In this document: positions 1,252 through 25,145 of the stretch, in pieces | Numbering within the stretch: position 1 is the stretch's first letter | Layout: every line of letters starts with the position of its first letter | Source: Druceiella hillmani | Lineage: Eukaryota; Arthropoda; Insecta; Lepidoptera; Hepialidae | Direction: 5' to 3' | Assembly (NCBI GenBank): GCA_039881145.1 | Contig: JAYKKI010000139.1 | Location: forward strand, 620,001-684,000 | DNA: 64,000 nucleotides | Translations under genes and position numbers: made by a program | Notes under the pieces: model-generated | Database searches by the model: none | Told to the model about the DNA's origin: nothing | Seen by the model: only the letters and a program-made list of their open reading frames with translations

Positions 1252-2142
1252 CGAGTTCACATATGATGTGAGTTCGAGGCCCTTACTCGTCCAGTTTACT
1301 TTGCGACTCTGATATTATATTACTAGAAGATAAATGGAAAGAAATTGGTTTGAGCATCCGCTTTATAATACCCATATTTGAAAGAAGACTGCTTCTTTCC
1401 AAAATAAACAACGATATAGTACATAAAGCTACCGACTTAGAGAACTTTGCATTTCAATGCGGAACTTAACTTGTCGATATAATTTCTAACAAAGTTAGGA
1501 TTGTCGAAGAGATGCAATTTAAAATACTTACTGACATTTAATTTGATGAAACTTTTTAAGTGAGTTAACTTTCGATTATGAAATTAAATGCAGCGAATGG
1601 ATTATCGCGAGCGTATCGGCTGACAAAGTGACAAAGGAACATTCCATTTACACACTTAGAAATCTGATGAAAATATTTATTTAATAAACATACATACATG
1701 TGTAATCTCAACGTTCCTATCAATAATTTTTTCGTCATATTATTTTATTAAAGACTTTTAAATAAAAACTTCTTTAGATGGAACCAACAGAAATCGTCTA
1801 GTGACAATTATTGCTTAACTTAACTTTCATGACAAAAAAATATTCCGAACATGACCTTTTTAATAAAAATATTCATCTTCTTATAGAATTTATTCGAAAT
1901 TTAAATCATATAAAGAGCTCGTAATCGATTTTTTATGTGTAGTTATATGCTGGTGCAAAAAAATATAGAGTACTAATTATTTAATTATTGGTTAAGAAGC
2001 AAAAATATAATTTATTCGTAAGTTATTCGTTATAGTCATTATAACATAAAAATTCAATTATAAGAGTATTATTCCTTCAATAACCTGTATTCAGTAATAA
2101 ATTGGCAATAAAATATCAAGTTAAAATGTTGGTGGCAACACT
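1252..2142. other. No gene seen; possible SINE B-box scrap
   Basis: At about 1270-1300 the words 'GAGTTCGAGGCCC' and 'ACTCGTCCAG' resemble the B-box and following segment of the SINE family found at 11.8 and 60.9 kb, but no A-box side is visible. The rest is featureless AT-rich sequence. Confidence 0.3.
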
Positions 2143-2252
2143 ACATAATATGTCAAAACGTCAACGTGAAATAATTATTTATTCACGTCAACGTGAAATA
2201 ATTATTTATTCACATAATATGTCAAAACGTCAACGTGAAATAATTATTTATT
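2143..2252. repeat. Short tandem duplication, 26-42 bp units
   Basis: The block 'CGTCAACGTGAAATAATTAT' occurs three times. The first and third copies are preceded by 'ACATAATATGTCAAAA'. Copies are identical where compared, so the expansion looks recent. Confidence 0.9.
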
Positions 2253-2308
2253 TGCTTGGCCATTGCTTGTGTTTGGTTATCAAAAGGAAAATACAATATT
2301 CTTGAGAA

Positions 2309-2499
2309 CACACTTTCAACAGACTAGTGATATCAAAGTCGGGCCAATATTAAATGGTTCATTTCCTGTCGACGCCATATTAGAATCGACGCCGATATTA
2401 TTGATGTCGTGCAGATACCACCATGTTGAATATTGTGAAAACGTCCTATTAAAGATTGATCCTCAGGTCATTCCGACATTCCTATTAATGAACAAGTAA
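2309..2499. other. GC-richer island with open frames, unassigned
   Basis: This stretch is visibly less AT-rich than its surroundings. On the plus strand an open frame runs from an AG-ended pyrimidine stretch to a TAA near 2499. On the minus strand another frame stays open for most of the island and contains a Trp-Trp pair. Both translations look protein-like but I recognise neither, so I do not choose a strand. It may be a transposon remnant. Confidence 0.2.
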
Positions 2500-3734
2500 C
2501 AATATTTATCACAAGTTGAGTGATTACGTATCTCATGTTAACATAATCTACGTATTTCCCGAAATAATTTTTATTTGTCATGTTTCATTGACACCTTAAT
2601 TTGAAGGTAAGTTATTAACCGAATTGAACTGCGTATATATAAATCTGGTAAAGTTATTAGTTAAAAACATGGCTTAATTCGAGTTTTAAAGACTTATCTT
2701 TGTTGATTGTATACCAGTGAATTTGTATCCGCTTTGGAGCCAAAACTCCTATTTAAAGTAGCCATTTCCTTTTCCACTATCTGGACATAAATCTTTTAGC
2801 AGAGTGAACAGTACTCATAAGATTAAGCAAGAAATTCTCGGATTGGCATTGAACGTAGTGTGTTTCAACACCAGGCAATAAACAAAATATTATGGTAATT
2901 AGTATATAGTACCCGTAAGTAAAACAATTTTGTGAAAAAAAACCACCATCAAAATATTCTTCCCTACAATGAATAGTGTTTTATGAAACCGTATTAAATT
3001 TAAATAAAGTTGTTATTTTTTTTAAGTACAATTATTTAAGAGACTAAATAATAATTTATCCCTGACTCCATTTATCACAACTATTGTTGTTAATTTAAAT
3101 ACGTATAGTTATTAATAAATGTAACTTTAAAGTTTTTAAACGACGAAAAATGAAGCTAGGTAAATTTTTAATAAATGTATTTCAGAGTAAGTCGTCTACA
3201 GTAAGATAAAGTCTGGTATCTGATGAAAAGACAAAAATAATCTCGGGATTTTATTAATAAAATATTTTTATAGTAATGGTGTATAAAATGTTATTTTCCA
3301 TGTTGACTTATTCTTTCACAGTTATCGGAGAATATCAGTGGAAAACTGGAAGTCGTTCTCAATTATTAGAAATTAAATGTAATTATTCAATTGCCTTATT
3401 GAAATTATTTATTTTTACCTTAGTTAAACGACCAAATAAATTTTAAAAGTTCTACTATTTATTTTCTTTTTGTTAAATTTAACCTAAATTTTTAAATTGT
3501 TTCGAACATACATTTCTCCGTTCTTGATGTTATTTTATTATATTTATTTATCATCTTTTATGCATAATGCCTATAGCGGACTTATTGTACATAAGAAATC
3601 TCTTCCAATCAACCATAACAATTGGTATTGAAATTTAGTTGGTAGACCGTAAGAGATTTCACAATGTAAATTATTTATAGTACATTAAACAAAATAAATA
3701 AAGAATACAAATGTTTTAATAATACAACTTATTG
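2500..3734. other. AT-rich sequence, nothing recognised
   Basis: No coding signal, RNA gene or clear repeat seen. An isolated donor-like 'AAGGTAAGT' occurs near 2607 without an identifiable exon. Confidence 0.6.
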
Positions 3735-4640
3735 AAATGATTTGGGTCGGGAAAGGCAGGAAAAGACAAGGGCACAAAGGAAAAGGTTTCATAAAAGGCA
3801 GGAATTTTTCCCTCGATCTTCAAAAATATTTAGGAACGTGATTTCCCTGGTTTCAGGAAAATCACTTTCCTAAGGATCCAAGTGATTCCAAATTTTTGCT
3901 ACTTGGACAGTAAACGATTTTTCTTAAGAGGTAGAGGTATGTTTAGGAATAAGTAGGGTGAGTAAACTTTCAGATCGTATCCCAAGACCGTGAGGAGAGA
4001 AATCTTTAAATTTGATATTAAGATAAAATTTGCTCTGAGGATTTTTTCGTATATAAAAAAGAAGTGTAAGTATGCAAAGTTGGCGTGGATTACGGACCTC
4101 CAGCCATTTGTGAAATGTCATAAATGAAATATGGTCATATTTTTTGAGGCTGAAGATGTACCTAATGCATAAATTTTGAAGACGTTCAAATTTTTACAAA
4201 TATTCTTCATTAAGATCAGGATAGCACACATCTCCATAATCAATTAGTGATAATAGAGTGTTTGATAAATGTAGATTTTCATTTTAGTCAGAAGACAATT
4301 ATGACGTTTCAAAGAGTGTATCCTATTGAAAACACGACGACTAACATCAGTTACTTGAGGGTGCCAACTAAGATTTTGATCGTTGAGTAGGCCCGAGTTT
4401 TTAACAATTGACGTATATTGTATTATTTAAAACAATTTTAAGCCAACTAGGTTTACTTTAGAAATCAGTTTTGATGATAGCTTGAGACTTGCTTGAGTTA
4501 ACCAAAGACCCATTTCTTGAGCCCACTGACAAATTAAAGCGCGATCTCGTTTAAGGGCGTCGATGCTTTTTGATAACGGATGCGCGTATTCTGACTTTGG
4601 ATAAACTATTATCATTGTCATATGGTGTACTTTAATAATA
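3735..4640 (-). pseudogene. Truncated LINE ORF2, reverse-transcriptase C-terminal half (Jockey/CR1-like)
   Basis: Read on the minus strand, this is the 3' half of a non-LTR retrotransposon reverse transcriptase. In order: a stretch reading IDALKRDRALICQWAQEMGL (4427-4621), typical of the region just after the catalytic YADD box; then 'LLNDQNLSW', 'VSRRVFNRIHSLKR', 'DYGDVCYPDLNEE' and 'LCIRYIFSLKKYDHIS'; then the C-terminal 'FTVQVAKIWNHLD' (near 3870-3915), equivalent to the SFTV-AxxLWN block that closes these proteins. The expected YADD motif itself is degraded at the 5' edge. Several frameshifts and stops separate these blocks, for example near 4130-4260 and 3880. A 3' tail of about 130 bp follows. 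Family assignment rests on recalled motif order. It is dead and 5'-truncated, as usual for LINE insertions. Confidence 0.88.
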
Positions 4641-4802
4641 TATCGCCAGCCTAATTCGTTAACCTACTAAATCCACTTATGGTTAAAATTTACTTTTAAT
4701 ACAAGTCGAAATGTATAGATTATTATTTACCGTGTCGTAAAGGAATAACGACTGCCTTAGCTTAAATAAGCGCGAAATGCTTTGCCCGAAAAATTACTTA
4801 CC

Positions 4803-4992
4803 GACCGTCGAGCTCCACATCAAAAACCTGCTTTATCCTGTTGGGGCCTCAGTTTTGAATCTAGCTGTATTTTTTGTGTAGATATGTAAATAGCAAATTA
4901 CGAAGCTATTAAACTTACCTTACGTTTATTTTGTTCTATCTGTAACTTTTTCTTCTGTTTAGCATTGAAATTTTCAATCACATTCAACTCCT
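4803..4992 (-). other. Two exon-like blocks with donor sites, unassigned
   Basis: On the minus strand an open block at about 4992-4917 (Lys/Gln/Asn-rich) ends in the consensus donor AAG|GTAAGT. After roughly 70-80 bp there is an AG, then a second short block ending at about 4803 in TCG|GTAAGT. A phase-0 join is possible if the second block begins at 'GTTTTTGATGTGG'. The decayed LINE lies immediately downstream on the same strand, so any gene would be cut there. I do not recognise the peptide, and chance donors are frequent in AT-rich DNA. Confidence 0.2.
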
Positions 4993-5158
4993 AACCTAAA
5001 CATTAGTGGCTTGACAGATTTGCGGACTGTAGATCTTTATGGAAAAGGATTTAGCAGTTTATTAATTCAATATTTTTCGTTGCTCGAATTTGTTAGTTTG
5101 TAAATTTCATTACCTAAATGATACAAGTAAGCATATTACGGAAACGGTTTATTTTTAG

Positions 5159-8901: not shown

Positions 8902-9409
8902 TTTACAAATTTCTTATGATACTATTTCATTTACAAAAATTAAATATATTATATTATGAGGACTGAGTTTATCTGTTTTGATCTTATTAATATACATTTT
9001 ATGTATTTTTTTATAATCTAATGCGTACGTTGATAATGTTATATAAAAATGAAAACAACATTTTATAAAAGAAACTATTCTTATTCAATTCAACTTCCTC
9101 TCATCTCTATACTTACTTAGTTGTAATTAAAAATGTAAATAAACTTTTATAATGAATAATCGATTCTTTGTCATCAGTTTATTTTTTACTTGGACGTTCA
9201 TCCGTCCAAAACACTGACCATAAAAACTTTCTTTAAATAGATGTTTACTTGCCAAGACTACTTAGTAAATCAGATGTGGACAAATGGGGATTTAACTGAT
9301 TATGAAAAATGTTTTCCTTGCTTTCCTTGTCTGCGGCTTATGGCACTATTCCATGTCTGAAATAAATCTTTTTCATATTTTCTTTATTTTATATTTTTTT
9401 TCTAAAATA

Positions 9410-9503
9410 CAGGTACTATAAATTATTGTACTATACTATATTATATTACAGGTACTATAAATTACTAATAAATACAGGTACTATAAATTACTATACTATA
9501 AAT
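9410..9503. repeat. Degenerate tandem repeat of an 'ACAGGTACTATAAATTA' unit
   Basis: Three copies of 'ACAGGTACTATAAATTA' are separated by short ACTATA-type spacers. Confidence 0.85.
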
Positions 9504-10760
9504 TCCGTTATTGAAAATGAAAGTTTATTCAAGTATTTCTTCATTCACCAAAAATATGCTCTAGAAATAGCTATATTAAACCCTTGCTGATTGTTCAACT
9601 GCTGGAGCAGCGCTCCCAGGGGGAAAATAATTATTTGAGGGCAGTTTAAAATCTTATTAAATCTTATTAAGATTTAAAAAAAAATCATTTGAAACCCAAG
9701 AAATTACTTACGTAGTGAGAATTGACTGAAAATAAACCATCAATCGATGAATAATTTATTAGATATATTAACATAATAAAAAACTAATAACTACTATATA
9801 TATGAGAAGAAAGATTTTTAGACAGATTTTTAGATTTTGTAATATATTTTTAATCGATCTAATCAAGGTAATTTAAAAATAAAATATTATTAATTTTATT
9901 CAAGCTTTTACTTAAATCTTAAAATATAATTATTTATCAAAATTGGAAAGCGAATGTTTTTCCACTCAGGTTAATAATTCGTATTAGTAGAGGGTTAAAA
10001 TATTGTTAGCATTATCTAAAAATCTTTTCTCTGAAACTCATTTCTCCTCCACTAGGACATTGAATGGAAAAAGTTTTATCACTGACCAATTAATGGGATT
10101 CATAAAGAATATATCATAATATTAATCACAAATCTTAACAAATATTTTATCAATAAACTTTAAAATGAAATCATTAAACAATTCCGTCTTTTAATGAATC
10201 CTATTTTTGCTATAAATAGAACAAAAAAGACGGTAAAATTTTAAAGCTTTGCTGTTTAAATTCTCAAAAAAAAAAATTCTGTGAAGTTGTCACATATACG
10301 CAAAATAATTAAAAAACAATTTTTACCGTTTATTAATCTGACCACATTGTCTGACCGTTAATGAATTTTACTGACCGACTATTGAAAACTAGTGTTTGAT
10401 CGATTTTGTGTTTGTTTCGGATCAAATACGATAATGTAGTGTATAAAACTGAATCTAACAAATATGCGTTACAATCTAGTAGATAGTTTTCTTTTTAATT
10501 CTATTGCACCCAAAGAATAAATAATTTTGACTGATATGACTTTTAAAACACCAACCAAAGACACTTCTCCTTAAAGTAATTGCTAAAACTTTGTAAAAAC
10601 TCAAAAAAAATTAAAATTAAGTTAAAAATGTTTTATGGCTGGCCAATTAACGAGTTTAAGTTACCAATTATGTTCTGTTCTTGATTTATTAGAAGGTATT
10701 TTTTATTCTTCTTTTGACGGTGTTTTTTATTCTATTAATTTCTGAAATACTATGTTCGTA
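9504..10760. other. AT-rich sequence, nothing recognised
   Basis: No gene seen. A GC-rich imperfect hairpin ('CTGGAGC' and 'GCTCCCAG') lies at 9601-9619 and a direct repeat of 'AAATCTTATTA' at about 9648-9672. Confidence 0.55.
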
Positions 10761-17131: not shown

Positions 17132-17879
17132 GATAAATAAATATCTTAAGTAAAAGTTGAATTCGCGTCACGAGACATCCACTTATACTTATGCGTAGGG
17201 GGCGGATTTCGCAAATAGGCGAAAATTGGTATTTGGTTTCGCAAAATACTCAATAACTACCAAAGGTAGACGTTATATTAAAATACCAGGGCATAGAATG
17301 GCCTTTGTACTATGTTACTGTGCGACATTTTTTTTAAATTATGTTTCAAACTTAAAAAAAAATAATCTCAAATTAACCTCGTTTACCAAAAAGGCTCTTC
17401 GCTGTTTCGCATATTCAAATAATATTATAAAAATACATCGATTTTCAGTTCACTGTGTCTAGTTTTAATTAATGTAGCTACGTTCTTGTATATGGATTTA
17501 ACTATGACATAAATATGAACCCTTTGGTATTAGGTCAAATTTGCCGAATTTTTACGGCACTCCGCGCGCGAATTTTCCATACTAGCTTCTATGAAAACAA
17601 AAACGATTATTATCTACGGCGCTCACGCATATTTTGAATTCAGTACCGTTTGCGCTTGCAAACAGTTAGGACGTGGGATCCGGTCGCTCTTCGTCAACCT
17701 GTGCCAAAGATTTATAACGCGTACACGGCTTGTACACAGTATAAGTTTTATGTTGTATGTTACGATAAAATGCAAATTACGTATAAATGATTATTACATA
17801 ATACTTCTATGATACATTCTAAATGCATAATGTTTTGTAAATTAGTGGATATATTTGTTTATATTCTGTATATTTTCAG
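17131..17879 (+). promoter_or_regulatory. Possible 5' region of the Mutator/YqaJ-like relic
   Basis: The stretch upstream of the first coding exon contains CpG-bearing patches unlike the flanking DNA, for example 'CGGCACTCCGCGCGCG' near 17555 and 'GGGATCCGGTCGCTCTTCG' near 17675. A pyrimidine-AG at about 17865-17879 ('TATATTTTCAG') sits six bases before the ATG at 17886, which suggests a 5'-UTR intron. No TATA box or terminal inverted repeat could be assigned. Open frames at 17226-17462 and 17591-17812 have no recognisable product. Confidence 0.3.
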
Positions 17880-17885
17880 ATATTA

Positions 17886-17971
17886 ATGGGAAAACGTAAA
17901 ATTTCCTACAGGCGTCCGGTATTGGGAGCAAAAATGAAAAAAAGAAATTTATTACGTGCCCTAAACAAAAG
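17886..17971 (+). pseudogene. Mutator/YqaJ relic, exon 1 (basic N-terminus)
   Basis: The ATG lies in 'ATTAATGG'. It opens 28 codons starting MGKRKISYRRPVLGAKMKKR, very rich in Lys and Arg and suited to nuclear localisation. The exon ends AAAAG|GTTTGT at 17971/17972 after the second base of a codon. The acceptor of exon 2 supplies the third base, giving an Arg codon. Without splicing the frame meets TAA within a few codons. Confidence 0.6.
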
Positions 17972-18655
17972 GTTTGTAGAAATTTTATAATAGAGAATTA
18001 TAAAGAATTATTAAATATACTCGTATTTTAGAAGTAATAAATCGGTATTTGGACTTTACTGAGTATTAGGGAGATACATTTTATAATTTCATTGTATACG
18101 TAAAGATGTATATTTTTTTTAAATATTAAAGGTTTAAGTTTTTTAGATGTATCTGTGCGTTCAATATCGTATTTTATTGAATATTGTAATGATTCTCTTT
18201 TAGTATTTTATCAACATTTTAAAAACAAAATACTTGCTACTCTGTGTTTGTTTGTGTGCATTTTACAGCCATTTATCGTGGGAACGCTGATTTAGAAAGA
18301 TGATATAAAATTTTACATGTTTATAGCTTCTGGTAAACGCAGACGTAAAACATAAAACTATAACTCAGGCTGATTTGTAGAGAGAGGGGGCAATTTATGG
18401 GGTTTTTATCGTACTCATTATGTGGGATATAAAATGAATGTCGGTAAAATAGGGGTTCAAAAATATTAATATTTTTGAAAAAATTGCAAATTTTTGTTTA
18501 AACGTCGAGAAATTATTATTTGACTACTAGAAAATTATTCTATTTTTAATTTTGTAATTTTTTATTAGTTTTTTATTATTGACATTGAGTTGCAAATTTT
18601 TCGGATGCAATTCTATTCTATCATTAAAAGAAAATAATCGTCGTAATTGTTGCAG

Positions 18656-18737
18656 GAACCATACTGTAGACGAAATTGAAAATAATGTTGCAGGGGGCAA
18701 CATTGAAAGAGAAGGGGTATGTACTAGGGCAGAAAAT
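18656..18737 (+). pseudogene. Mutator/YqaJ relic, exon 2
   Basis: The acceptor is 'GTAATTGTTGCAG|G' at 18655/18656. The exon encodes 27 residues after the split codon (Asn, Glu and Val rich, ending GVCTRAEN). It ends at the consensus donor AAAAT|GTAAGT at 18737/18738 in phase 0, matching exon 3. Phase agreement at both junctions is the main support. Confidence 0.6.
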
Positions 18738-18870
18738 GTAAGTCTGATATAATATTCCTGAGGTAACTGAAAATGTTTTCCACCAATCTGATTAAACCTA
18801 TTAATTCCACATGATAGTTCCAGGACTAAGCATATAATGAACCATAGTATAATCTTATGTATTAATTTAC

Positions 18871-18872
18871 AA

Positions 18873-18933
<61 letters not shown>

Positions 18934-18948
18934 TGTGTGTATGTGTGC
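18871..18948. repeat. (TA)n-(TG)n microsatellite inside intron 2
   Basis: A long TA run ends in 'GCGTGTGTGTATGTGTGC'. It lies wholly within the 413-bp second intron of the Mutator/YqaJ-like relic. Confidence 0.97.
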
Positions 18949-19150
18949 TGTTTCCGGTTTGGTATTTTGGCCGTAATTCCAACTCTGTTTGTAACGTGTC
19001 TATTTCAATTCGACAACGTTGAAATTCGTAACATTTAAATTCAACTATTTTAAAAATGATTAACTGAGCTATTGATTGCACACCTAATCACAATTTTTTC
19101 ATGCGTAAACTTAGAGATTTCTCACAAGTAACTTTACAATTAGTTTGCAG

Positions 19151-21518
19151 ATACCTTTAAATCTCATTCTTGAAATGGAAGAGGAAACAGCAGGAAATGG
19201 TATTGTGATTGAAGGCAGGAGAATAGTTAATTTTATGCATTTTTTCAATCTTATGAAAAACATTTCTACACACGGAAATATGGATTGTAATTTAGGTTAT
19301 ATTCAAATCATTTCAGAAGTCGTGTTGGACTAATTTCAAATTCCGTTTTGATATGTCGCATGTGTGGAGAGAAATTCATTTTGAGTACGGATGAAATGAA
19401 AGGTATTGGTATAGACATAAATCACGCTACTGTATCTAGTATTATGTCGGTAGGTTCTGGTCATGCTCATCTACAAACTATTACTGCTGCTTTAGAAATT
19501 CCGGCTATATGTGCAAAATTGTATGTATCTGTACACGACACTGTGTGTGAGTGGTGGGAGAAGACCGCGGCACATTGTATGTCAGAAGCTGCCAAGCAAG
19601 AATCGAATTATGCAATATCTATTGGTAATGTTAATAAGCATGGAACACCTATGATCACAGTGGTTGCTGACGGATTTGGTCAAAAAGGTCATATCGAACC
19701 AACTATTCCGCTTTATCCGGTGCAGCTGTTATTGTAGGTCATAAATTTGGAAAGGTTTTATATTTGGGAATAAAAAATAAATATTGCATGATTTGTGCTC
19801 GTTCTGCTAATAAGAATGTGGAGCCTCTAGAGCATTTTTGCTATAAAAACTATTCAGGTTCATCTACCGCGATGGAATCTACTATAATTTTGGAGGGGTT
19901 TAAAAGTTCTCTTAAAGAATACGGTCTCATATATGAAAAAATAATAGCTGACGGAGATTCCAGTACATATAAAAAAATTCTTGATTCGCGACCATATGGT
20001 GATTTTATTGTTGAAAAAATTGAATGTAAAAACCATCTATTACGAAATTACTGTAAGGCATTATTAAATATTTCAACCAATACGCAATATCCTAGTGAAC
20101 TACGTAAATTTGTAAAAGATCGGTATTTACGTTTAAGAAAGAGTGTAGAATGTGCAATCAGATATTGGGGTGAGCAAAATTTACAACTTCACGAAAAAAT
20201 TTCACAACTTGCTGAAGATATCCTGAACGGTCCACATCACGTATTTGGTAACCATGTAAATTGTGCCTCTTATTTTTGTTCACAAGAAAGTAGACGCGTT
20301 AATGAAGTAAATTTAGTTAATAACTTGAAAGTATCAGGTGTACTAACAAAATTAGAAGATTTAAGTAGTAAATTGTCTCGACAATCTCGTAGTTTAATTT
20401 ATAATGTAACGAGTAATATAGTAGAAAGCTATAATTCTCAGGTTGCCAAATTCGTAGGAGGTAAAAGAATAAATTATTCTCTTCGACGTTCTTATGGCGG
20501 GCGATGTGCTGGTGGTCTTGTGTCTTTTAATACGGGAGCACTTCATTCCGTTACTCATGAAGTTATATTCGGCATAAAAGCCAATTCTTTAATATCGCGA
20601 GTGGAGAAATCTAGATTACACAAAGTTGACAAAAATATTAAAAAGAAGAAATTTACTCACACTACCTCTGTATCTAACGATCCCCACTATGGGCCACAAT
20701 GCCAACAACCTGACTTGAGCTCTGAATGTTTTGAACAGGCGAAGTCAGATTTTATGGCTAAATTGTCGTTTACAGATCTCCAGCGCCAGCAACTAGAGAG
20801 GAATACGATTTTGCAGAGTAGTAGTGGTGACTGGTTGAGCATACGTAGAAAGCTTTTAACGTCTTCGTGGTTCGGGAAGGTTTGTAAGAGAGGAAAGGCT
20901 ACCAGTTGTGCGCCTCTAGTTAAATCCATACTTTATGGCAAATGTTTGAATAATATTCCATCCATTAGGTATGGTAAAGATGACAAACAAATCGCAATTA
21001 GACAATTAAGTGTCCAAGAAGATAAAATAATCGAGAAGTGCGGTTTGTTCATAGATGGCACATATTATTTTCTGGGAGCATCGCCAGACGGTAAATACGC
21101 ATAAGGAATTGTGGAGGTTAAATGTCCTTTCATTTTTTCCAAACTTGAGGTAGTTGATGCCATGAAAAAACACTCTTTTTGGAAATTAGATAAAGAAAAC
21201 AATTTCATAATTAATAAAAACCATGACTGGTATTTTCAAATTCAAGGACAGTTGCATATTACCAAAAGTCACATTTGCCTGTTTGCCGTCTGGATTGGCG
21301 AGAGGACACCACTTAAAGTCTATCGGATTGAAAGAGACGACCAATTTTGGAAAGATAAAATGGAACAAAAGCTGATCGAATTTTATAATAATTGTTTACT
21401 TCCAGAATTGGTAGATCCGCGCATCCCAAGGTCTATGGATATTCGGAATCCTCCATATATCTTACGATCTACTCTTTTCTTCCATAGCATGGAAGAAAAG
21501 AGTAAACAAACATGTTAG
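19151..21518 (+). pseudogene. Mutator/YqaJ relic, exon 3 (both catalytic domains)
   Basis: After the acceptor 'AATTAGTTTGCAG' the frame reads 'GRRIVNFMHFFNLMKNIS' and stops at 19331-19333. Shifted by one from about 19320 it resumes with 'CRMCGEKFILSTDE', a Cys pair typical of the family, and 'VVADG'. A second shift near 19690 restores 'YRTNYSALSGAAVIVGHKFG' and 'GIKNKYCMICARS'. Then 'IADGDSSTYKKI', 'ECKNHLLRNYC' and 'VESYNSQVAKFVGGKRINYS' complete the transposase part. The YqaJ part has 'SSWFGKVCKRGKATSC', 'GASPDG' (Asp codon 21087-21089) and 'VEVKCPF' (Glu 21114, Lys 21120), the usual metal-binding and E-x-K positions. The TAA at 21102 falls between them. Most length is otherwise open, so inactivation is not ancient. 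Confidence 0.9.
21471..21503. terminator. Perfect 15-bp-arm hairpin at the 3' end of the relic
   Basis: 'ACTCTTTTCTTCCAT', a three-base loop AGC, and 'ATGGAAGAAAAGAGT' form a perfect inverted repeat exactly where the family's C-terminus is expected to end. The last 16 or so codons of the open frame are produced by the hairpin. It could be a 3'-end RNA structure or a mutational foldback; no function is shown. Confidence 0.9.
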
Positions 21519-21608
21519 ATGAGGCCGACTGATGATAGTTTAAGTTCTTTTTAGATGTCTTTGATTGTATTCTGCGTTATTTTTTATCTATGATAACGGT
21601 TTGGGTTT

Positions 21609-21611
<3 letters not shown>

Positions 21612-21683
<72 letters not shown>

Positions 21684-21688
21684 AGTGT
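21612..21688. repeat. (TA)n-(TG)n microsatellite
   Basis: About 27 TA units run into about ten TG units, about 95 bp after the relic's last stop. It has the same TA-then-TG polarity as the array in intron 2. Confidence 0.97.
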
Positions 21689-23090
21689 ACCGGACTGGAA
21701 TCATTGCTGGATAGATAAACAATTATTCAGAATAATGAATGATAACCATGCGACTTGCATAGAAGGATGTCCATACATATCTTATTTTAATAAATGCTTA
21801 CGATCTTGGTCACTGTATTATTTTTATAATGTTATATTTCTAAATTGTTTTTCTTATTTTTTTGTACCAAATAATAAAATAGGTCTTTTATATTATTGCT
21901 AATTTCAAAAATTTAAATTACGATTAGAATTATAATTGCACATGTAGTCTATAAAACATTAATGTACATTAATTTTGATCTAAAATTGTCTTATAGCTAT
22001 AAATTGTTCGTTAATTTTTTTGGTATTCTGGAAGCAATGTTGCGTTTCCTAGTGAATTTTCAAGAAACCACGTATTCGTAAATCTTAAATTAAAAATATT
22101 TATAATGTTGGATTTGATTTCGTATTATTATTCGTAGCTTAAAAAAATTAACCGCTTGTCAGTGAAAGCCAAGATAAGAAACATATTAAACCTTGTTTTT
22201 TCTTGCCACTTTTTTCTTCTTTAATTTATGTAAATTTCTGAAATGAATTAAATGTTTTAGAAAATTTAGGACATATGGTATTATTAAAAGTATCTAAATA
22301 TAAAGTTTAAATGTTGAAACATAGATATGATGTACATATGGGATGTAATTATAAAATATTACAAACTTACATTGGGTAAAATTGAAAAATTACTGGAATA
22401 ATATTTTAATCAATTATAACATATTAAGACGTTTGTTATCCAACTGATTCACGGAACATCGTAATGGAGACATTATATAGGCTTTTTCATTTTTAATAAT
22501 TTTATAAAGTATATTTATTTTAAACCTTTACGGGTTTTAATTTTTTTTCTTATTTACAAATAAATTTTCTTTAAGTTTTCTTTTATACGTAATTTTATTA
22601 TTTTAACATTACTTCGTATTGTATAACATTAATTTATATTAGATGTCCCTAAGACTTCGTTTGCGTGTAATTATGATTTCTTTCCTTTAGACATAGCTCG
22701 TGGGTATGCAATATTAGCACAAAAATCCTAAAAAAAGTTCTTTTACTGCTATTATCATTCTATACGGTAAATTAGTCACTCCTTTAAAAATGTGATAGTG
22801 CAATTATTTTATCATAATTTGCACAAAGTTTTTTTAGGGATTTTATTCTTATCTTAGTCTACGCTTGCCATACTAATTTACAAAAAGATTATACATAAAA
22901 AATAGTAAATTATACATACAAAATATGTGCAACATTTTGTTCATTTTGGAATTCCCCAAATTCAGTCAAAAACCGACCTAAATCATATCCAAGGTTAAAT
23001 CGTATTCCGTATCAAGAGATTTACAAAGAAATTATAACACAGAAATCAAGCTCAGATTTACTTTAATAATTAGTCTAAAAAGCGTCTCAA
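21689..23090. other. AT-rich sequence, nothing recognised
   Basis: No coding or RNA signal. The open frame at 21669-21902 starts in the TG repeat and has no recognisable content. Confidence 0.55.
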
Positions 23091-23094
23091 TCGA

Positions 23095-23185
23095 TCCCAT
23101 TGTGCCGAGTGCGTTCGTGTAACGCACACTACTAACAGTCACACAGCACGGCCGGGGCCGGCGCATGCGCGTGTGTATTAGTAGA
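23095..23185. promoter_or_regulatory. GC-rich island with palindromic GCGCATGCGC
   Basis: In very AT-rich surroundings about 90 bp carry 'GGCCGGGGCCGG', then 'GGCGCATGCGCG' (a perfect match to the NRF-1/Ewg-type site core), 'TGCGTTCGTGTAACGCACAC', and imperfect inverted flanks 'CTACTAACAGTCACACAGC' and 'GTGTGTATTAGTAG'. It may be a promoter fragment or the end of a mobile element. No gene start is visible nearby. Confidence 0.35.
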
Positions 23186-25145
23186 AAACCAAATATTTCA
23201 TAGCATACATCCGACCCTTAAGCGTAGGTACACAATGTTTTGATAAACTTTTTGTAAATATTATTATTAGCTTCCATTCCATTTAAACGTGTTATCTAGC
23301 ATATCTTTAACAAGTATAAAATATTACGAATATCTCAGGAAATATGTAGTTTAGAATCATTGCTATAGTTTCCCAATAAATTTTAATTAAACTTCTAACG
23401 TTACTTTTAAAAATGTTAACTTTAGCAATTTCAAAGATAAGGAAGACATATTGTGTTAAAAAAATCTTAATTGTTGGCTTTAGCGATTTTGAAAATGGGG
23501 GAAAGCAACATATTGTATTTATACCATAACCATATTACGTAAAACCTAGTAAAAATATTTTTTAATTTTTTGTAAATAGCTCTTTCAAATATTATCCCAT
23601 GCTATTCAAAAAAATTAAATAGTTATTTAATTTGCTGCTTTTAACAATTCTAAGTAAACATTCATTGAGTGAAAAACAATTTTCAATGTTTCAAATATTA
23701 CAAGTCAAATATTCTACGTACACTACTTTTATAAAACTGGCTCTCCATTGATCACACTACAAACCCGAAAGTTCCCGGATTACTGCAAAATGCAATATGA
23801 AATTCTTTTTCATAGTATTTTGGTATATGATCTTAAGTCGTTTTTGCCTTTTACGAGTGTATTGTTGTGTATTTCCTATCCGACATTTGATCCTGTTTCC
23901 AATAGCAATATATTTTTTCACATTTGATTTCGCCTCAAAGATTGTTTGGAAAAGATCCTTGAAATTTTGCAGTGATAAAATGTATACGTCAAAAATCACC
24001 TATCTAAATATTCATATGGAAATTATAATAATTAACTATTAATTAGTAATAATTTACTATAGTACTTCTTGAGATATTGCGACAAATGTCTATAACAACA
24101 ATTTCCGCAAAAACCGTTTAATATAAGAACTTGAAATTAGGTGTTTAATATTATAAACACATGTAAACTCGCACTTATTTGAATACATAACTGTCACAAA
24201 CATAAACTAGAGAGTTTTTGAGATATACACCTATAAAAGTTAGCGTTAAGATCACCTTCAGGTATATTCTGGCGACAGCTTTCATCAAGCGTTACTCTTT
24301 AATGGTTTTAACTACAGCCCCGATTTTTTTTTCTTTCATTAAATAAATTGTAGTATACGCTTTTCAACGTTACTCGAATCATAGATTTAAAAAAAACATG
24401 AAATTTGCCTAGAACTGAAACCGATAAAAGTTTGTCCCATTATAATTAAAGTAAGGTAAACATATGTTTAACTCAGACATATATTAAGTTGGCATGGTCT
24501 ACAGAATAGTTAAATATTGCACTGTTTCTTTATTATGCCAACTTAATCACGTCTGTTTTAATACAGAAAAACATAAACCGTAGCTCTTTAGCTTGTACCG
24601 TACCTTTGAACTTGTTGACTGGCAATAGATCGAACAAATTACACGCACAAACTCACACAACTACAAACCGTCTGGTTGCAAATCTCTCTATGATGCCCTT
24701 GCTTAGGTATTTCTTTGAAAACACGATTGATACGGAAAGCGAATTTAGGGAAACTTATTTCTTTCATCTATATCCATGGTTCAGCTAGTTTTTCTTTTCA
24801 ACTGCTGTTTTAATAAGAATTTCAAGAATATACGGAAATTGTAAATGCTCCTTATTTCTTGCTTAAGCTAGTTCATACTTAACAGTTTGATCTGATTCTT
24901 CAAACTGAAGAAGAAATATTTCAGCCTATATTATATATTTTAGCGATAGAAGTAATTATGATTTCAATAATTTTACAAGTAAATTAGCTTTCAATATAAA
25001 TTTGTGAAAAGAGGAGAATTTTCTCTAAAAATGAGAACGTTTTTAGAACAAAATTATTATGATCTGAATTTAATAAATAACATGCCTCTCCATCCGTTAG
25101 TTAACAAGTTGTATCTTAACCGAGGGTGATAGATCTTTTTTTTTT
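23186..25145. other. AT-rich; contains dispersed repeat C pieces
   Basis: Two adjacent copies of 'TTTAGCAATTTCAAAGATAA' or 'TTTAGCGATTTTGAAAATGG' with 'ACATATTGT' lie at 23410-23460 and 23470-23520. They resemble repeat C (43.2, 48.85, 56.35 and 58.4 kb). Opposed open frames at 23757-24042 are mutually antisense and unsupported. No gene recognised. Confidence 0.4.

Follow-up and report, generated by a model that had tools for sequence, protein, structure and literature searches.

The stretch analysed here (the window) comprises 64,000 nucleotides of the genome (2.59 Gb in 181 contigs) of the hepialid moth Druceiella hillmani, positions 620,001 to 684,000 of contig JAYKKI010000139.1 (C139:620001-684000), and it contains one dead, freshly decayed copy of KolobokE, an autonomous DNA transposon. 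We are highly confident of this identification, because each KolobokE diagnostic that could be tested was found in the target site, the termini and the encoded protein. The element type has been described before, and the window locus adds another member. The locus itself is ordinary, since sister copies with open reading frames exist elsewhere in the same genome.

Most BLASTN matches between the window and other regions of the genome started at 17196/17199 and stopped at 23221/23222, and these shared points define an element of about 6.0 kb. The mobile unit (17199-23217 plus TTAA) is therefore larger than the gene at 17886 to 21518 that an earlier inspection of the letters, the sequence-only reading, had delimited. 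Its termini read 5'-GGGGCGGAT...ATCCGACCC-3', that is 5'-GG...CC-3', an RR..YY type. The features of the window copy are as follows.

17199-23217, plus strand: entire body of the KolobokE element, about 6.0 kb, GGGGCGGATTTCG through ATCCGACCC, by BLASTN borders and reading of the ends
17199-17207, plus strand: 5' terminal inverted repeat, GGGGCGGAT
17886-17971, plus strand: proposed exon 1, basic N-terminus; splice sites intact in sister copies, length variable at a run of A
18656-18737, plus strand: proposed exon 2; open joined frame, splice sites as in sister copies
19151-21518, plus strand: exon 3, transposase and nuclease; two frame breaks, a stop and an 18-nt in-frame insertion
19327-20279, plus strand: PF20700 transposase matches (Pfam), one on each side of a frame break
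20829-21267, plus strand: YqaJ/lambda-exonuclease-like domain, approximate, split by the stop; first part a sub-threshold match, extent taken from a sister copy
21470-21504, no strand: 35-nt near-perfect palindrome (32/35 positions) resulting from the private 18-nt insertion
23209-23217, minus strand: 3' terminal inverted repeat, GGGTCGGAT on the minus strand, 8/9 like the 5' end
23218-23221, no strand: right-side TTAA target-site duplication

Twenty sequences (19 loci and the window) were examined for their borders. Both ends could be placed in 16 copies, 13 of which had TTAA on both sides; beyond it the flanks of the copies were alike over at most 2 bp. The copy at L009 lies inside a 75-bp tandem satellite (about 1739-3063 and 9025-9699 of that locus), which supplies natural empty sites. 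Among 25 empty satellite monomers counted, 18 carried one TTAA and seven carried GTAA, all seven on the left side; an earlier, less complete pattern search of the satellite had given TTAA at the insertion point in 7/7 best matches. The doubly flanked copies and the satellite sites together indicate that the target duplication is TTAA. In the window copy, TTATGCGTAG (17189-17198) precedes GGGG in place of TTAA on the left, and TTAAGCGTAG (23218-23227) follows CCC on the right. The two form a 10-bp direct near-repeat (9/10; one case), which goes back either to an aberrant insertion of longer stagger or to a later repair event.

The open pieces of the window at 19327-21101 matched Pfam PF20700, "Mutator-like transposase", with E values of 5.2e-18 and 1.8e-51, whereas YqaJ (PF09588) stayed sub-threshold in the broken window piece (18.8 bits against a cut-off of 22). 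In the sister copy L001, the best PF20700 match of the genome, exon 3 matched PF20700 (E 2.8e-90) and, over residues 561-706, YqaJ (E 2.3e-11), and no other Pfam transposase model was listed for it at E up to 1. The fusion of a DDE transposase to a lambda-exonuclease-type YqaJ domain, proposed in the sequence-only reading, is thus borne out. A single open frame of 783 codons covers exon 3 with both domains in L009, L015 and L016; in L001, which is the same place as L009, the open frame has 795 codons.

The L001 exon-3 protein was used as the query of a protein search, in which the 7994 best candidates were scored, 357 proteins were obtained and 120 were listed. All 120 listed homologues carried both PF20700 and PF09588. 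Their named hosts include moths and butterflies, stick insects, fireflies and other beetles, aphids, a leafhopper, an ant, a mayfly and a tick, so the two-domain order does recur in other insects; the fusion itself, which had been called unusual, is common among the listed homologues and belongs to a lineage already named KolobokE (PMC9587614). Twenty-one sites, numbered by exon 3 of L001, were tested in the 120 homologues. The DDE triad (D174, D268 or D270 as the proposed second catalytic D, and E426) and C293xxH296 were present in 118 to 120 of them, the remainder being gaps. A CCHC set downstream of the first D (C213, C216, H229, C231) and an HHCC set between CxxH and the last E (H364, H369, C372, C377) were complete, each residue in 120/120, and are zinc-finger-like residues with putative metal binding. 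The nuclease residues E613, P646-D647 and E656xK658 (PD-ExK) were invariant where aligned, and the sole change over the 21 sites was one E at Q701.

Run against the PDB, a profile of 117 homologues matched LHK-Exo and lambda exonuclease. An AlphaFold2 model of homologue P0002 (predicted local distance difference test score, pLDDT, 91.4; predicted template modelling score, pTM, 0.68) matched lambda exonuclease in its C-terminal part, while its N-terminal part was best matched by ISCth4 and then by Hermes. These modelled folds fit the assignment and would not by themselves decide the superfamily. A viral origin of the fusion was considered and rejected: in an IMG/VR scan with the alignment, the matches of the best 80 of 244 relatives all started at query residue 450 or later. 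Because these matches begin beyond the transposase catalytic core, there is no viral copy of the fusion among those 80.

When 17886-17971, 18656-18737 and the sequence from 19151 onward were joined, the frame was open, with GT/AG at every site. The splice sites of exons 1 and 2 were intact in 15/15 other close copies retaining both exons, which favours the two upstream exons of the sequence-only reading; on the other side, the length of exon 1 in those copies varied at its run of A (86 nt in five, 85 in seven, other in three), and the exon 1-2 peptide had no significant match among the 120 homologues listed (best E 0.074). On this comparison of copies the two exons are plausible as proposed, not proven. 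Two TA/TG microsatellites lie within the element, at 18870-18945 (intron 2) and 21605-21690 (3' region), the former also occurring in L001 in a shorter form. A comparison of the window with Rfam at gathering scores yielded no match.

None of the 16 close sister copies has either of the one-base frame breaks of exon 3 (at about 19.32 and 19.68 kb), and the codon of the stop near 21.10 kb was a sense codon in 14 sisters and a gap in the other two. This copy was recently broken, one of the two possibilities that the sequence-only reading had offered. Its three named lesions were all found, and it had overlooked a fourth change, the 18-nt in-frame insertion near the C-terminus, which was missing from 16/16 sisters; the palindrome it forms might reflect a snap-back copying error. 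The lesions either arose in the window copy or are assembly errors there.

A PF20700 search of the moth's own genome yielded at least 118 matches (114 of 1461 candidates scored), compared with 0/14 control genomes. The matches listed cluster on contigs C73 (nine rows) and C103 (five rows); most of these are not among the listed exon-3 DNA matches and probably come from more distant families. Twenty regions were fetched around strong matches, and copy counts are lower bounds. Nineteen matched the window by BLASTN, 16 of them at about 96-99% over all or most of the element and three (L023, L024, L025) at about 88-94%; L028 had no BLASTN match to the window over 80 bp and was dropped. The search for copies, terminal repeats and target duplications that the sequence-only reading had proposed thus returned 16 close copies, 9-bp ends and TTAA.

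L023, L024 and L025 were excluded from the divergence statistics. Over the 17 close copies (the window and 16 sisters) the mean pairwise difference was 1.19% (0.88-1.69%), and each copy had 22-45 private substitutions, the window copy having the maximum of 45. This star-like divergence, judged from the substitutions, shows a recent burst and not current activity. The neutral rate in Drosophila is near 3e-9 per site per generation; at about 0.6% per copy, the burst would date to some two million generations ago, as an order of magnitude. Exon 3 was fully open in 3/17 copies, and all three proposed exons were open together in 1/17. The question of which lineage carries intact copies is thereby answered in part: the same genome does. 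Differences within the family at codon positions 1/2/3 of exon 3 numbered 68/69/84, and against the diverged copies they were 29/33/43 (L025), 33/22/30 (L023) and 21/15/15 (L024). This pattern is near neutral, and therefore no selection is claimed. In L023-L025, exon 3 had diverged by 4.0-4.5% compared with 7.1-9.4% in the 3' region, which hints weakly at past constraint.

The exact 5' terminus with TTAA occurred 102 times in the genome, and the reversed control 0 times. Twenty-four of 100 listed termini lay within 8 kb of a listed exon-3 match (40 of 434 candidates scored). From the 76 listed termini with no exon-3 match nearby we picked ten derivatives and read them over 2.4 kb. Eight had internal deletions, and the other two retained just short terminal matches. 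One identical deletion, from element position 1889 to 5103 and removing exon 3, was shared by six (L109, L110, L111, L114, L115 and L117). Because these six are about 85% identical to one another (82-87%) and have unrelated 5' flanks, the deleted form was evidently mobilised in trans at an earlier time. We infer that the family was active in more than one wave.

The diagnostics published by Kojima and Bao (2022; PMC9587614) describe the Kolobok superfamily by TTAA duplications, 5'-RR..YY-3' ends (unlike piggyBac) and a DDE transposase with C/DxxH between the second D and E. Between C/DxxH and the last E, most lineages carry a zinc finger whose third-position C is near invariant; lineages P, E, D and 5, among a small number of others, have a CCHC finger after the first catalytic D; and the mark of KolobokE is a PD-D/ExK nuclease, lambda-exonuclease-like, that lies downstream of the transposase. 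The sequence-only reading had spoken of a Mutator transposase, a label that comes from the name of the Pfam model. That a Mutator-like (MuDR/MULE) element captured a YqaJ nuclease would agree with this name, with the C/DxxH motif, which PMC9587614 lists for MuDR, hAT, P, Kolobok and Dada, and with the 10-bp near-repeat at the window copy borders, the single case here that resembles an 8-11 bp duplication. The target sites speak otherwise: MULE duplications are 8-11 bp (PMC6446971), and the element studied here has a 4-bp TTAA in 13/16 copies and in the satellite empty sites. Its inverted ends are 9 bp, although some MULEs are also noted to be without long inverted ends (PMC6446971). The HHCC set, moreover, matches the zinc finger stated to be absent from MuDR, P and hAT (PMC9587614), and no second Pfam transposase model was listed at E up to 1. 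Membership in Mutator was accordingly rejected on target duplication, and we regard it as extremely improbable. Scarcely more credible is that the gene is live and the window lesions are sequencing or assembly errors. The disabling lesions number just three, two of them one-base frame breaks, as such errors would predict, but the highest count of private substitutions among the 17 copies, the altered left border and the private insertion fit ordinary decay, and exon 3 is interrupted in 13/16 sisters as well. Two points count against identifying the locus as KolobokE: TTAA was found at a single end in 3/16 copies (L020, L021 and the window copy), and the element was placed by published diagnostics and not by a tree that includes Repbase references.

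Cutting and joining at the target by the DDE domain are established for such transposases, and on that ground the DDE domain of KolobokE would recognise the ends, cut at the TTAA borders and insert the element at another TTAA. The nuclease fused to it would most probably work as a 5'-to-3' exonuclease on the DNA ends that excision leaves behind. All 120 listed homologues have this nuclease, its active-site residues intact, which shows, at the level of sequence conservation, that it matters to the element, without telling what it does. The role we prefer is resection of the donor break, by which repair by homologous recombination would be favoured; this is a guess that could as easily fall the other way, toward end-trimming or another intermediate, and no footprint or repair product indicating resection was seen, which speaks against it. 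Alternatively, the nuclease would trim no more than a few 5' nucleotides before joining, from the ends of the element or from the TTAA overhang, and have no part in repair choice; this would suit the lambda-exonuclease fold with its PD-ExK residues intact and the exact insertion borders of most copies. A processive exonuclease exceeds the needs of such trimming, and piggyBac, which also uses TTAA, is not known to carry such a domain; we consider this role unlikely. ISCth4 is a copy-out element and the best structural match of the transposase domain, so that a copy-out or circular route, with the nuclease processing a circular or branched intermediate and not the donor break, deserves mention as a somewhat less likely explanation still. 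A circular form is mentioned in PMC9587614 where the sister lineage KolobokP, with its own nuclease, is discussed.

Taken further, donor-break resection would mean that KolobokE carries its own end-resection enzyme, and that 5'-to-3' resection forces sister-chromatid homologous repair, whereby a cut-and-paste element would copy itself at each move. We put this forward tentatively and think it rather doubtful. If true, DDE transposons have recruited repair-steering enzymes several times, in KolobokE and ISL2EU and, using different enzymes, in KolobokD and KolobokH. Because the genome has both a young family whose frames are open and older derivatives with deletions, the role of the fused exonuclease is approachable experimentally. 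The gene type that goes by "yqaJ-like viral recombinase" in insects, and by "Mutator-like transposase" in Pfam, is here a KolobokE transposon, neither viral nor Mutator.

A literature search pairing Kolobok with YqaJ found no paper. Among known systems, MULE/MuDR elements share with the window element the DDE core with C/DxxH and the Pfam model name, and differ in having duplications of 8-11 bp and, in most cases, long inverted ends, compared with TTAA and 9-bp ends here (PMC6446971). ISL2EU is likewise a DDE transposon encoding a YqaJ-type alkaline exonuclease, but there the exonuclease is a second open reading frame of a Harbinger-like element (PMC9179366), whereas in the window element it shares a single frame with the transposase. 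KolobokD, KolobokP and KolobokH belong to the same superfamily and each have an accessory enzyme, namely a DnaQ exonuclease, a His-Me nuclease and a RecQ helicase, respectively, in contrast to the lambda-exonuclease-like domain here (PMC9587614). In the features that were compared with KolobokE, namely TTAA, RR..YY ends, the DDE transposase with CxxH, both zinc-finger sets and the downstream PD-ExK domain, the window element showed no difference (PMC9587614).
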